DNA of 56,389 nucleotides. It comes from a virus. The stretch lies in IMG/VR virus record IMGVR_UViG_3300035183_000021, positions 1-56,389 of that record. One strand, written 5' to 3'. The first letter of the stretch is position 1. Each line of letters begins with the position of its first letter. The translations under genes were made by a program, and so were the position numbers. Of this stretch, positions 1,127 to 38,381 are shown in pieces. The notes beneath the pieces were generated by a model. That model worked only from the letters and a program-made list of their open reading frames with translations, made no database searches and was not told the DNA's origin.

Positions 1127-3382
1127 ATGCTGGAGATAAATTACACCCCTCCGCCGACTGTCAAAAGGTTCATGGCTTCAAACGCCAGAATGCGCGTTCT
1201 TATGGGGCCTGTTGGCTGTCTTGCGCCTGAAACGCTGGTGGTTACGGAATATGGGTTGATTCCCATCGCGCATATAGATCGGCCAATGCGCGTTCTATCG
1301 TGGAACGAGAAGACATGTCAATTCCAGCTTTCTTGGTGTGGCGGTGCGTTCCCAAAAGGTACGGACTATCTATACCGAGTTTCAACGCCGCGAGGAGAAT
1401 TTGCCGCAAACGAATATCACCTCGTTTACGACGGATCGCGTACATATCGACACGTTCGATCACTGCTCCCCGGTCAGACCGTTTCCCAATATTCCGGCGA
1501 CCTGCCTCTGACAGATTTGGTGAAAGTCCTCCTCGCGTCACAGCCAGATGCTCGCCATTCGAGGGGAAAAGCCGTAGATTATCTGGGTGATTATGCAGCG
1601 TCAGCCCGTCGATATGGTCTACAACTTCTGAGGGAAGAAGGTATCGACCTAGCTTACGTTCAAGAACCAGGCGATGTTCAAAGATTATCTTACCCTTCCG
1701 GTTCGGTCGCTGGCGGGCGTAGGGATGGTCGTCTGGAGCGGTCACTAGCACGTATCCGTCAAGGTCTATCCGCCGCCCTGACACGTATTGGTGGTTTCTT
1801 TCCCCCGGTTGCGCCCCTTCATTTAGCCGTGGCAGGTTCAACCGCAGCATCACTTTTCGGACATAGCGAGGAGTTAGACCCACAATTTCTGCGATTTCTA
1901 CAGACGATCGACGACCATCTGCCAATTGGGCAATCCGCTTCGTGTTTTCATTCATACGACTTAACCTCCATATCCGACGGGACCATCCTATCAGTGACTC
2001 GTGAGACTGTCAAACGGTCGTATTGGGATATGCAGGTACTTGACACCAATAATTACGTCACTGCCGATGGAACGATCCATCATAATTCAGGTAAATCCAC
2101 TGCTTGCTGTTTTGAGATAATCCGCCGTGCGGCTATGCAGGCTCCTAATTCCCGTGGTATTCGTAAAACCCGAGCAGTGGTTGTACGGGAAACGGCTAGG
2201 CAGTTGCAGGATACGACGATCAAGACATTCCTCGACTGGTTTCCGCCAGGGGCGTGTGGGGAGTTTATGCGCACGACCAAGACCTACTTTTTCAAAGTGG
2301 GTGATGTGGAGTGCGAGATTATGTTCCGCGCGCTGGATGACGCGGATGACGTGGCAAATCTGAACTCGTTGGAAGTGACTTTTGCGTGGTTCAACGAGTG
2401 CCGCGATATTCACCCTGATATTGTAGACGCCATGTCTAAACGTGTTGGGCGGTATCCGTCAGCTAAAGATGGGGGGCCGACGTGGTTTGGGATGTGGGGA
2501 GACACTAACCCGCCGACGATGGACACGTGGTGGTATTACCAGATGGAGCATCTTGACCCCAGGGATGGGGTGTCACCACTCGATAACGGTTGGGAGGTGT
2601 TCAAACAGCCGTCGGGGCGGAGTCCCTTTGCTGAGAATATCGAGAACCTGCCGGAAGGGTATTACGACACAACTGGACGGTCGGAGGAGTATATCCGTGT
2701 CTATATCGACGGCGAGTATGGGCTATCCTTGGCGGGGACGCCGGTCTATAAGTATTTCAGACCAGATTACCACATGGCTTCCTCTCCGTTACGACCGATT
2801 CTCAATGGGGTTCGGCCTATTGTCGTGGGGATGGATTTGGGGCTTACCCCGGCGGCGGTTATTGGGCAGCAGGACCCGCGCGGGCGGGCGCTGATTTTTG
2901 CAGAAGCGGTGTCGTTCGATATGGGTATCCAGCGGTTCATCCGTACCATGCTTAAGCCTCTGCTCTATGAACGCTTTCCGGGGGCTCCGGTGTTGGTGGT
3001 GACTGACCCGGCAGGGATGCAGCGGGCGCAGACGGATGAGCGCAGCGCGGTGGATATTATCAAAGCGGAGGGGTTAAAAGTCATTCCGGCTAAAACGAAT
3101 AGCCTGTCAGCGCGGATCAACGCGGTGGATGAATATCTCATGCGGCAGGTGGATGGTGATCCGGCGTTTCTCGTTGATCCTCGCTGCACGCAGCTAAAAG
3201 CCGCTATGATGGGAGGTTATCGCTATAAGCCTAAAGGTGACGGTGAGATCGACAAAAATAAGCACTCCCACGTAGCTGAAGCGCTTCAGTATTTGATGCT
3301 CCATATCAGTGGTGCTGCCGAGGGGCAGATGCTGCGTCAGCGGCGTGAAATAAAACACTTGTCAGCACTGGGTTGGACGTGA
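1127..3382 (+). CDS. terL: Terminase large subunit interrupted by an intein
   Basis: The product is a 751-residue precursor. The ATPase P-loop is split: residues 26-30 read MGPVG, then a 290-residue intein (31-320), then SGKST from residue 321. Splicing would restore GPVGSGKST, a perfect Walker A, and leave a 461-residue terminase. Downstream are a Walker B-like region (FAWFNECRD) and an RNase H-like nuclease motif (VVGMDLGLTP), as in phage packaging motors that cut concatemers and translocate DNA through the portal. AAGG lies upstream of the ATG. Without splicing the ATPase should be inactive, so splicing is presumably essential for packaging. Confidence 0.93.
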   Translation: MLEINYTPPPTVKRFMASNARMRVLMGPVGCLAPETLVVTEYGLIPIAHIDRPMRVLSWNEKTCQFQLSWCGGAFPKGTDYLYRVSTPRGEFAANEYHLVYDGSRTYRHVRSLLPGQTVSQYSGDLPLTDLVKVLLASQPDARHSRGKAVDYLGDYAASARRYGLQLLREEGIDLAYVQEPGDVQRLSYPSGSVAGGRRDGRLERSLARIRQGLSAALTRIGGFFPPVAPLHLAVAGSTAASLFGHSEELDPQFLRFLQTIDDHLPIGQSASCFHSYDLTSISDGTILSVTRETVKRSYWDMQVLDTNNYVTADGTIHHNSGKSTACCFEIIRRAAMQAPNSRGIRKTRAVVVRETARQLQDTTIKTFLDWFPPGACGEFMRTTKTYFFKVGDVECEIMFRALDDADDVANLNSLEVTFAWFNECRDIHPDIVDAMSKRVGRYPSAKDGGPTWFGMWGDTNPPTMDTWWYYQMEHLDPRDGVSPLDNGWEVFKQPSGRSPFAENIENLPEGYYDTTGRSEEYIRVYIDGEYGLSLAGTPVYKYFRPDYHMASSPLRPILNGVRPIVVGMDLGLTPAAVIGQQDPRGRALIFAEAVSFDMGIQRFIRTMLKPLLYERFPGAPVLVVTDPAGMQRAQTDERSAVDIIKAEGLKVIPAKTNSLSARINAVDEYLMRQVDGDPAFLVDPRCTQLKAAMMGGYRYKPKGDGEIDKNKHSHVAEALQYLMLHISGAAEGQMLRQRREIKHLSALGWT
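1242..1955 (-). CDS. HNH homing endonuclease encoded antisense within the intein
   Basis: This 237-residue protein is read from the minus strand, entirely inside the intein DNA. Residues 5-42 resemble a helix-turn-helix (ADGRRSSVEIAEIVGLTPRY). Residues 89-140 form an HNH_3-type nuclease core: FEHRLVLER, LPSEVVDHIDG (His114), then HNHPDNLRLF (Asn126) and SNGEHL. The ATG is preceded by GGAGG (1965-1969) at 9 bases and by a TTGACA-N17-TAGGAT promoter (2013-1985). Free-standing phage HNH enzymes commonly have this layout. The expected role is cutting intein-less terL alleles to spread the intein. Its C-terminal third is antisense to the intein's N-terminal splicing blocks, so both strands are constrained there. 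Confidence 0.88.
   Translation of the reverse strand: MNENTKRIAQLADGRRSSVEIAEIVGLTPRYVRKVMLRLNLPRLNEGAQPGERNHQYVSGRRIDLDGYVLVTAPDDHPYARQRPNRKGKIIFEHRLVLERKLGRYLLPSEVVDHIDGLTLHNHPDNLRLFPSNGEHLAVTRGGLSPNLSEAGRRNIGKRSDRGAVIERVDMYAIRRKRGDIRLRQILLAALKLGIDSPYLLGTHRHTKKAGIDMSSRSTIERALADLYARWESTHIP
1985..2013 (-). promoter_or_regulatory. Promoter for the antisense HNH gene, inside the intein
   Basis: On the minus strand TTGACA (2013-2008, perfect -35) is followed after 17 bases by TAGGAT (1990-1985, four of six -10 matches). The predicted start lies about 10 bases before the GGAGG ribosome binding site of the HNH gene. The promoter also falls within the intein, so promoter, ribosome binding site and gene would move together. 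Confidence 0.6.
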
Positions 3383-37077: not shown

Positions 37078-37365
37078 TTATTCAACAGTTTTCAGTAGCT
37101 CAAGCAGATACTGCTTACGTTGTTTCTGGTTTGCTGCAATTGCTTCAGGCGTAGGCCATCCGTACTTCGTCACTACTGCCAGCATTCGCTTGAGCATCGC
37201 CCGTGCTGCGTTTTCATTAGACCTACGGATGGGCCTCCCTTTCACCCATCCATAATACGTCACACGGGACACTCCAAGCAACTCGGCCATGTCCGCAGTA
37301 GTGAGAAGCATGTGCTTACGAAGGGCCTCGACCTTGGTGAAATCAATAGGTTTAGGCGTCATCAT
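37078..37365 (-). CDS. HTH-type DNA-binding protein
   Basis: 95 residues with a Cro/C1-like helix-turn-helix (about residues 22-45, TADMAELLGVSRVTYYGWVKG). The start at ATG 37365 is 9 bases after GGAGG; a GTG at 37371 is too close. It overlaps the upstream gene's end by 14 bases. The only obvious classical HTH regulator in the leftward unit, it could regulate replication genes or act on the host. Confidence 0.65.
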   Translation of the reverse strand: MMTPKPIDFTKVEALRKHMLLTTADMAELLGVSRVTYYGWVKGRPIRRSNENAARAMLKRMLAVVTKYGWPTPEAIAANQKQRKQYLLELLKTVE

Positions 37366-38359
37366 CTGCACCTACCTCCCCAATGAGCGCGGCAATCTCA
37401 TCTGCCAACGACGACGCAGCATCAACAGCCGAGACAGGGGTAGCCTTGGCCGCCGGAGCCGGGGCAGCTTTAACCGCCTTGGCAGGGGCCGCAGCCGGTG
37501 CCGGAGCAGCCGCTTTAGGTGCGCCAAAACCACGCCTAGGAGCAACAGTCTGCGCAGGTGCAGGGGCGGGCTCCTCCGTTACTGCTGCTACTTTGACAGC
37601 GGGTTTCGGCGCAACGGGTGCCGGAGCAGCGACTTCAGGAACAGGCACAGGCCGCCGGGGTACTTCCCCGGTGATTTCCTTGACTCGCTCGCTACCGAAC
37701 AACTCGTCCACGATCTTCTGCGTCTCCTCATCGAGGAACCCAGCGAAGGTGAACTTCAGCTTGGGGAACGACGCATCAGTATCGAAAGAGACACGAGTCT
37801 TCACGATCTCTGGCGGGATGCCCCGCATGGACAGCTCCTTCTGGTATTGATTCAGATTCTTGAGAGCAGCCGGAGTAACTTGCAACAGATAGATCGGACC
37901 GCTGGGGTCATCCGCAGCGACAACCGCCAGTCGCTTCTGGTCTGCACAAGCCTTGATCTGCTGCCCTTGCGGAGTCACTTTAGAACCCCATGCGTTCTGC
38001 GGGCAGGAAGCGCACAGATCACTTTGCGGGTCGGTGGCTTCAGGATCAGGGCTGATGCCATCCAGCGAGAAACAATCAGGCGCTTGCGGTTCCGAATCCG
38101 GCGTCCACGGTTTGGCATACCAGGTTTTCGACAGTCGCGGGTTAGCACCCACAATCACGACATCCAGCGCCGTGGCATCCAGCACAGTCTCAGTATCACC
38201 CTCGACGATGCGGAAACGTGCGCCCTTGATACTGATACGCGGGTACGTGGCCCCAGACGACAGACCACCGACCAGCGAAGCCGCCAGAGGCGACGGAGCG
38301 CCGATACGAGAAGCAAGGTGGGCGGGAACTTGGATGTTTGCAGGAATGATGTTGCTCAT
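37352..38359 (-). CDS. Putative ssDNA-binding or replication accessory protein
   Basis: 335 residues. Conserved-looking segments include KTWYAKPW, PDCFSLDGISPDP and DLCASCPQNAWGSK, with Cys residues suited to metal binding. The last 110 residues are Ala/Pro-rich, with an acidic end (EVGADDDA) typical of SSB-like proteins. Position among replication genes supports a DNA-binding role, but I cannot name the family. AGGAG precedes the ATG. Confidence 0.5.
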   Translation of the reverse strand: MSNIIPANIQVPAHLASRIGAPSPLAASLVGGLSSGATYPRISIKGARFRIVEGDTETVLDATALDVVIVGANPRLSKTWYAKPWTPDSEPQAPDCFSLDGISPDPEATDPQSDLCASCPQNAWGSKVTPQGQQIKACADQKRLAVVAADDPSGPIYLLQVTPAALKNLNQYQKELSMRGIPPEIVKTRVSFDTDASFPKLKFTFAGFLDEETQKIVDELFGSERVKEITGEVPRRPVPVPEVAAPAPVAPKPAVKVAAVTEEPAPAPAQTVAPRRGFGAPKAAAPAPAAAPAKAVKAAPAPAAKATPVSAVDAASSLADEIAALIGEVGADDDA

Positions 38360-38381
38360 TTTAGGCTCCTATAAGTTGGGG

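Follow-up and report, generated by a model that had tools for sequence, protein, structure and literature searches.

We found that the large terminase (TerL) gene of a virus is interrupted at its P-loop by an intein, and that the opposite strand of this intein encodes an HNH endonuclease with predicted expression signals of its own. The window, namely the whole stretch of DNA that was analyzed, is a virus record of 56,389 bases with structural genes on the plus strand and replication genes (polymerase, helicase and primase) on the minus strand. We consider it very probable that the element is a mobile intein whose antisense endonuclease recognizes the P-loop site and, by way of a mimic of that site, probably represses its own promoter, as I-TevI does. 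The features of the locus are collected in Table 1.

Table 1. Features of the interrupted terL locus and of the antisense endonuclease gene (positions in the window).
Feature	Position	Strand	Basis or remark
TerL (large terminase) gene, intein host	1127-3382	+	PHROG_2 E 2e-23; P-loop GPVG/SGKST flanking the insert
TerL N-extein	1127-1216	+	
TerL C-extein	2087-3382	+	
Intein, 290 aa	1217-2086	+	Blocks A/B in residues 1-95; F/G in 250-290; disordered spacer ~150-244
Dual-coding zone	1242-1480	both	N-terminal splicing domain (+) over HNH C-terminal domain (-)
HTH + HNH_3 endonuclease gene, 237 aa	1955-1242	-	ATG start at 1955, stop at 1242; Pfam HNH_3, PHROG_10730; nested wholly in the intein
Shine-Dalgarno GGAGG of the antisense gene	1965-1969	-	Sequence
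Homing-site-like element GGTCCCGTCGGATATGGA	1967-1984	-	Degenerate copy of the uninterrupted exon site (GPVG/SG); probable operator
-10 hexamer TAGGAT	1985-1990	-	Conserved position
-35 hexamer TTGACA	2008-2013	-	17-bp spacer; same position in 59/87 loci

The TerL gene forms one uninterrupted open frame of 751 codons. In addition to the PHROG_2 (terminase large subunit) profile in Table 1, it matches NCBIfam TIGR01547 with an E-value of 5e-9, below the cut-off of that model. The insert splits the P-loop between Gly and Ser (...LMGPVG / CLAPETLVV...TIHHN / SGKSTACC) and has the residues of a class 1 intein, namely Cys1, the block B His, the C-terminal HHN and Ser+1. Among 51 homologous inteins, C1, H68, H288, H289 and N290 are invariant, PF14890 (Intein_splicing) matches 40 of the sense translations, and the +1 residue is S, T or C across loci. 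In the AF2 model, residues 1-95 and 250-290 were predicted with confidence to adopt a Hint fold (splicing domain pLDDT ~95), and the spacer is predicted to be disordered (pLDDT ~30). Foldseek matched this model to the Ssp and Npu DnaB and Mtu RecA inteins with E-values of 1e-7 to 1e-5. No endonuclease family matched the sense frame in any of the 51 inteins. These results bear out the sequence-only reading, which had described a 290-residue P-loop intein with Cys1, HHN and Ser+1 but no in-frame endonuclease, and they suggest that TerL is probably spliced at this site. We also considered an unspliced, tolerated insertion that hides an HNH gene, as in ShiLan, where the host frame is likewise open and an HNH gene lies in a different frame (PMC11855218). 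However, the TerL insert has a full set of invariant splicing blocks and a Hint fold, and it interrupts the ATPase P-loop of a motor protein that is essential. We rejected such an insertion on the splicing blocks and the Hint fold, and regard it as highly improbable.

The second claim of that reading, that the minus strand encodes a 237-residue HNH_3-type enzyme lying wholly within the intein, was also upheld when the product was compared with HNH families. It matched Pfam HNH_3 above the gathering cut-off (E 6e-7; 29.4 bits against 24.8) and, over nearly its full length, the PHROG_10730 HNH endonuclease (E 1e-58), and it has an HTH at its N-terminus. Residues D113, H114, N122, N126 and H136 are invariant in 52 sequences; we take them to be the active-site residues, with roles assigned from general knowledge of HNH enzymes. 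The AF2 model has a pLDDT of 88.7 (input to the structure predictions was limited to IMG/VR and genome loci). A sequence search of the PDB with this protein gave nothing useful, and the top solved structure in Foldseek was the HNH homing endonuclease I-HmuI (1u3e; probability 0.93, E 0.05), a match that is globally weak and confined to the HNH core. The C-terminal helical domain (residues 150-237 of the window's protein, P0001; 1242-1508, minus strand) had no match outside the HNH family of these TerL inteins.

By tblastn, the same antisense arrangement was found in cultured phages, namely seven Pectobacterium phages, Dickeya phage Setonix and Pseudoalteromonas phage PHS3. IMG/VR was scanned with three queries (the HNH protein, an alignment of divergent HNH sequences and the intein frame), and one scan of bacterial genomes gave carriers in an actinobacterial MAG, a Desulfobulbaceae MAG and an Acinetobacter genome. 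At all HNH loci from these sources, the gene lies antisense in a TerL intein, and always in one phase. Removal of inteins that were more than 88% identical in nucleotide sequence left 87 non-redundant inteins, 56 in the discovery set and 31 held out, with zero stops in either frame; the remaining two sense frames at the listed loci contain 2-17 stops each. In other words, translating the minus strands of TerL inteins at the same site, as had been proposed, gave an intact antisense frame in every homologue examined, and no related intein with a missing or stop-ridden antisense frame was found. There was no P-loop-site intein without the HNH gene among the best 80 by intein frame, a ranking that favors HNH-bearing inteins, and rare inteins without it may be missed because each search comprised the best 80 matches. 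Searches for the same HNH family as free-standing genes or within other genes found only distant HNH genes, which lie on the same strand as their neighbors where annotated and have no C-terminal domain.

Several of the records differ in annotation or length. In the PHS3 record (L002, KX912252.1), HNH is annotated on one strand and TerL begins only after the intein. In the Ymer record (L001, OP748252.2), the whole fused TerL is labeled a hypothetical protein and no HNH gene is called. The TerL frames of loci L035, L032 and L057 have 1106, 903 and 1125 aa, compared with the usual 700-800 aa; L035 has 778 aa after the P-loop intein, so that it may contain another insert or intein, or be a fusion.

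The phase of the two frames is such that the wobble base of each HNH codon is the second base of an intein codon, and the wobble base of each intein codon is the second base of an HNH codon; therefore, the two frames pull in opposite directions. We calculated diversity by codon position across 56 loci. It was highest at intein third positions in intein residues 1-15 and 256-290, and highest at HNH third positions in intein residues 91-240, where the lowest values fell at HNH second positions and not at intein second positions. All three codon positions showed low diversity in intein residues 16-75, the stretch in which the DNA for the splicing domain also encodes the HNH C-terminal domain; opposite the spacer (residues ~150-244) lies the coding sequence for the N-terminal portion of the HNH protein, HTH included. 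This pattern shows what we read as HNH coding in the middle of the intein, intein coding at both ends and both in between. Codon-level purifying selection in the antisense frame, which had been proposed as a test, is seen directly in the position-specific diversity. Shuffling the synonymous codons of the HNH gene gave ~7 intein-frame stops per gene (391 expected across the 56 loci, 0 seen), and shuffling those of the intein gave ~5 HNH-frame stops per gene (277 expected, 0 seen). For this window alone, the chance of no stop in these two shuffles was 0.002 and 0.007. By these sequence data, selection acts on both frames, and no homologue has a stop in either.

These data bear on the possibility that the antisense frame is open by chance, as can happen opposite a gene when the DNA is GC-rich. 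Given that other long antisense ORFs are present in the same GC-rich phage, ORF length alone is no evidence for an antisense gene. However, the frame matches PHROG_10730, is kept in all 87 loci, is least diverse at HNH second positions in intein residues 91-240 and lacks the stops expected after shuffling, and in free-standing HNH relatives nearly all antisense frames are broken by 3-18 stops. The evidence for a real antisense gene is its homology, its retention across dozens of lineages and the outcome of the shuffle tests. A chance ORF is refuted by the conservation data, and we give it practically no credence. Elsewhere in the window there is a further long antisense overlap (37289-38374 on the plus strand, 361 aa; 37352-38359 on the minus strand, 335 aa), which is probably due to chance in GC-rich DNA.

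Upstream of the HNH start, the minus strand reads TTGACA, 17 bp, TAGGAT (2013-1985), then GGTCCCGTCGGATATGGA (1984-1967), which is overlapped by GGAGG, 9 nt upstream of the ATG. The promoter and Shine-Dalgarno site lie inside the C-terminal coding region of the intein. This is the only promoter-like site predicted in 1000-2400. On its own, such a hit in a single window is no more than chance, so the evidence for the promoter is its conservation: the -35 hexamer stands at a constant distance from the junction in 59 of the 87 loci, and promoter scores exceed those of synonymous controls. A Shine-Dalgarno-like tetramer precedes an in-frame start in 81 of the 87. These conserved signals show that the endonuclease gene has its own predicted minus-strand promoter and ribosome-binding site. 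They are, together with the homing-site-like element, new relative to the sequence-only reading.

The homing-site-like element reads GPVG-x-G and overlaps the promoter/leader region and GGAGG, an overlap of homing-site copy and endonuclease promoter that is also seen in I-TevI. In the window, it matches its own exon at 11 of 12 non-wobble bases, the best match in the whole intein. When both strands of the whole intein were considered, the best match to the locus's own exon lay 96-108 nt from the junction in 71 of the 87 loci, compared with only 11% at that place for codon-shuffled exon sites; it was inverted and 70-80 nt from the junction in five loci and elsewhere in 11. The element tracks the P-loop of its host, reading GPIG (L070), GPFG (L055 and L160), GGFG (L088 and L164), AGYG (L274), GGAG (PHS3, L276, L267 and L302) and, inverted, AGFG (L254 and L265). 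In the AGFG/AGYG-class carriers L001 (Ymer), L073, L254 and L265, the inverted element lies ~76 nt from the junction, compared with ~99 nt for elements on the HNH strand. A permutation of exon classes, which takes the classes as independent, was significant in the discovery set (p=2e-5) and, with the same p value, in the 31 held-out loci. Identity between element and exon is 20% at wobble bases, which is chance, and 91% at non-wobble bases, the latter figure being inflated because sites were chosen by best match, so that the permutation tests are the fair measure. Within the GPVG class, the information content is 1.2-2.0 bits at non-wobble and 0.1-0.5 bits at wobble bases. Coding for the intein cannot explain this pattern, because the variable wobble bases are the first positions of intein codons; we therefore rejected the idea that the upstream element is conserved for what it encodes on the sense strand.

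It is also conceivable that the element is a fossil and no working operator, being a flank left by entry of the HNH gene or a product of repeated gene conversion from the exon; resemblance to the exon alone could be inherited. However, the wobble bases match the exon only at chance, so the exon has not been copied into the element recently. In addition, the non-wobble bases persist where the intein frame would allow change, and the element follows the exon class across the 12 classes. We consider a fossil unlikely, and prefer the reading as an operator.

To the question of mobility, the closest TerL proteins are informative. At 78-87% identity, 79 of the 80 closest TerLs are empty at exactly GPVG/SGK and one carries the same intein; that is, the intein exactly occupies a position left vacant in close relatives, as expected for a homing endonuclease. 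The HNH proteins of the window and Ymer are 55% identical, although their TerLs share only 16% identity, and therefore the element appears to have spread between unrelated terminases. Conversely, loci L060 and L066 have TerLs that are 83% identical and HNH proteins that are only 56% identical. These comparisons suggest that, beyond descent, the element has moved from one terminase to another at a motif they share and has invaded repeatedly. The HNH enzyme presumably cuts or nicks intein-less terL and drives homing, for which the co-variation of the site mimic with the exon is indirect evidence.

A different role for the HNH protein would be in DNA packaging with the terminase and not in homing. 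Its gene sits in terL, and HNH proteins encoded beside terminase genes are known, for example HK97 gp74. HNH partners of terminases are also mentioned in the literature (PMC11855218). However, no HNH gene of the TerL-intein family was found in the stretches fetched around the 79 intein-less TerLs. Moreover, the HNH gene travels with the intein between unrelated TerLs, and the upstream element mimics the insertion site. A packaging role therefore seems very unlikely.

Under the homing interpretation, the HNH protein would bind the P-loop DNA GGNCCNGTNGG... and tolerate changes at its wobble bases. It would then cut or nick intein-less terL, and repair would copy the intein into the gene. The same protein would bind the mimic at its own promoter and switch itself off. 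Such autorepression would limit the amount of enzyme and would keep antisense transcription from interfering with late terL expression. A separate promoter would also let the endonuclease be made without TerL, which is impossible for an endonuclease encoded in frame.

With less assurance, we lean towards a broader view, in which the locus represents a third architecture of mobile inteins, with the splicing protein and the homing endonuclease overprinted on opposite strands. In this architecture, the C-terminal domain of the endonuclease, which no free-standing relative examined has, would have arisen antisense to the splicing domain, and the promoter operator would have co-evolved with the P-loop target across many phage lineages. 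The C-terminal domain may thus have been born by overprinting. If this is true, the loci are a natural record of specificity change in a homing endonuclease. They also offer a clean example, replicated many times over, of opposite strands coding for two conserved protein domains, and the paired homing and operator sites in many phages reveal the likely DNA specificity and wobble tolerance of the HNH enzyme by comparison alone. It has been assumed that the endonuclease of a mobile intein is either in frame with it or adjacent to a split intein; the arrangement contradicts this, and annotation restricted to the intein frame therefore misses a class of mobile elements. Public records name the element a hypothetical protein or cut the intein away. 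We found no earlier report in the open-access literature of an endonuclease antisense within an intein, or of a mobile intein built in this way.

Mobile inteins with an in-frame endonuclease (LAGLIDADG, or HNH in cyanobacterial GyrB) resemble this element in having a Hint domain in an active-site motif, an endonuclease within the element and a sporadic distribution. Here, however, the endonuclease is on the opposite strand, is a separate protein with its own promoter and shares its DNA with the splicing domain. In split inteins ('fractured genes'), a free-standing endonuclease gene lies between the halves; the endonuclease is a separate protein in both cases, whereas the TerL intein is contiguous and the gene overlaps it antisense. 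ShiLan-type elements are out-of-frame HNH insertions in phage methylases, and there too an HNH gene overlaps an open host frame in phages; however, the HNH gene there has the same orientation as the host gene and is hidden in an insert that is unspliced and has no detectable splicing domain, and that of the TerL intein is antisense (PMC11855218). Antisense homing endonuclease genes are known in nuclear group I introns (Dir.S956-2 and I-DsqI), where the endonuclease is likewise transcribed opposite to a self-splicing element, apparently from its own promoter (PMC9548176). There, the self-splicing element is an intron of RNA, and the gene occupies one of its peripheral insertions (P9.2 for L2066), whereas the TerL intein has two protein-coding frames on one DNA (PMC9548176). 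Operator mimics are known for T4 intron endonucleases. The operator of I-TevI, from the T4 td intron, resembles the homing site (15/20) and overlaps the promoter; I-TevI binds it and represses, and cuts there ~100-fold less (PMC2988022). The TerL-intein HNH gene is alike in that its promoter, too, is overlapped by a homing-site copy. However, I-TevI is a GIY-YIG enzyme of a group I intron and its regulation was shown experimentally, whereas the present case involves an HNH enzyme, an intein, an antisense gene and co-variation across many phages, known from sequence alone.
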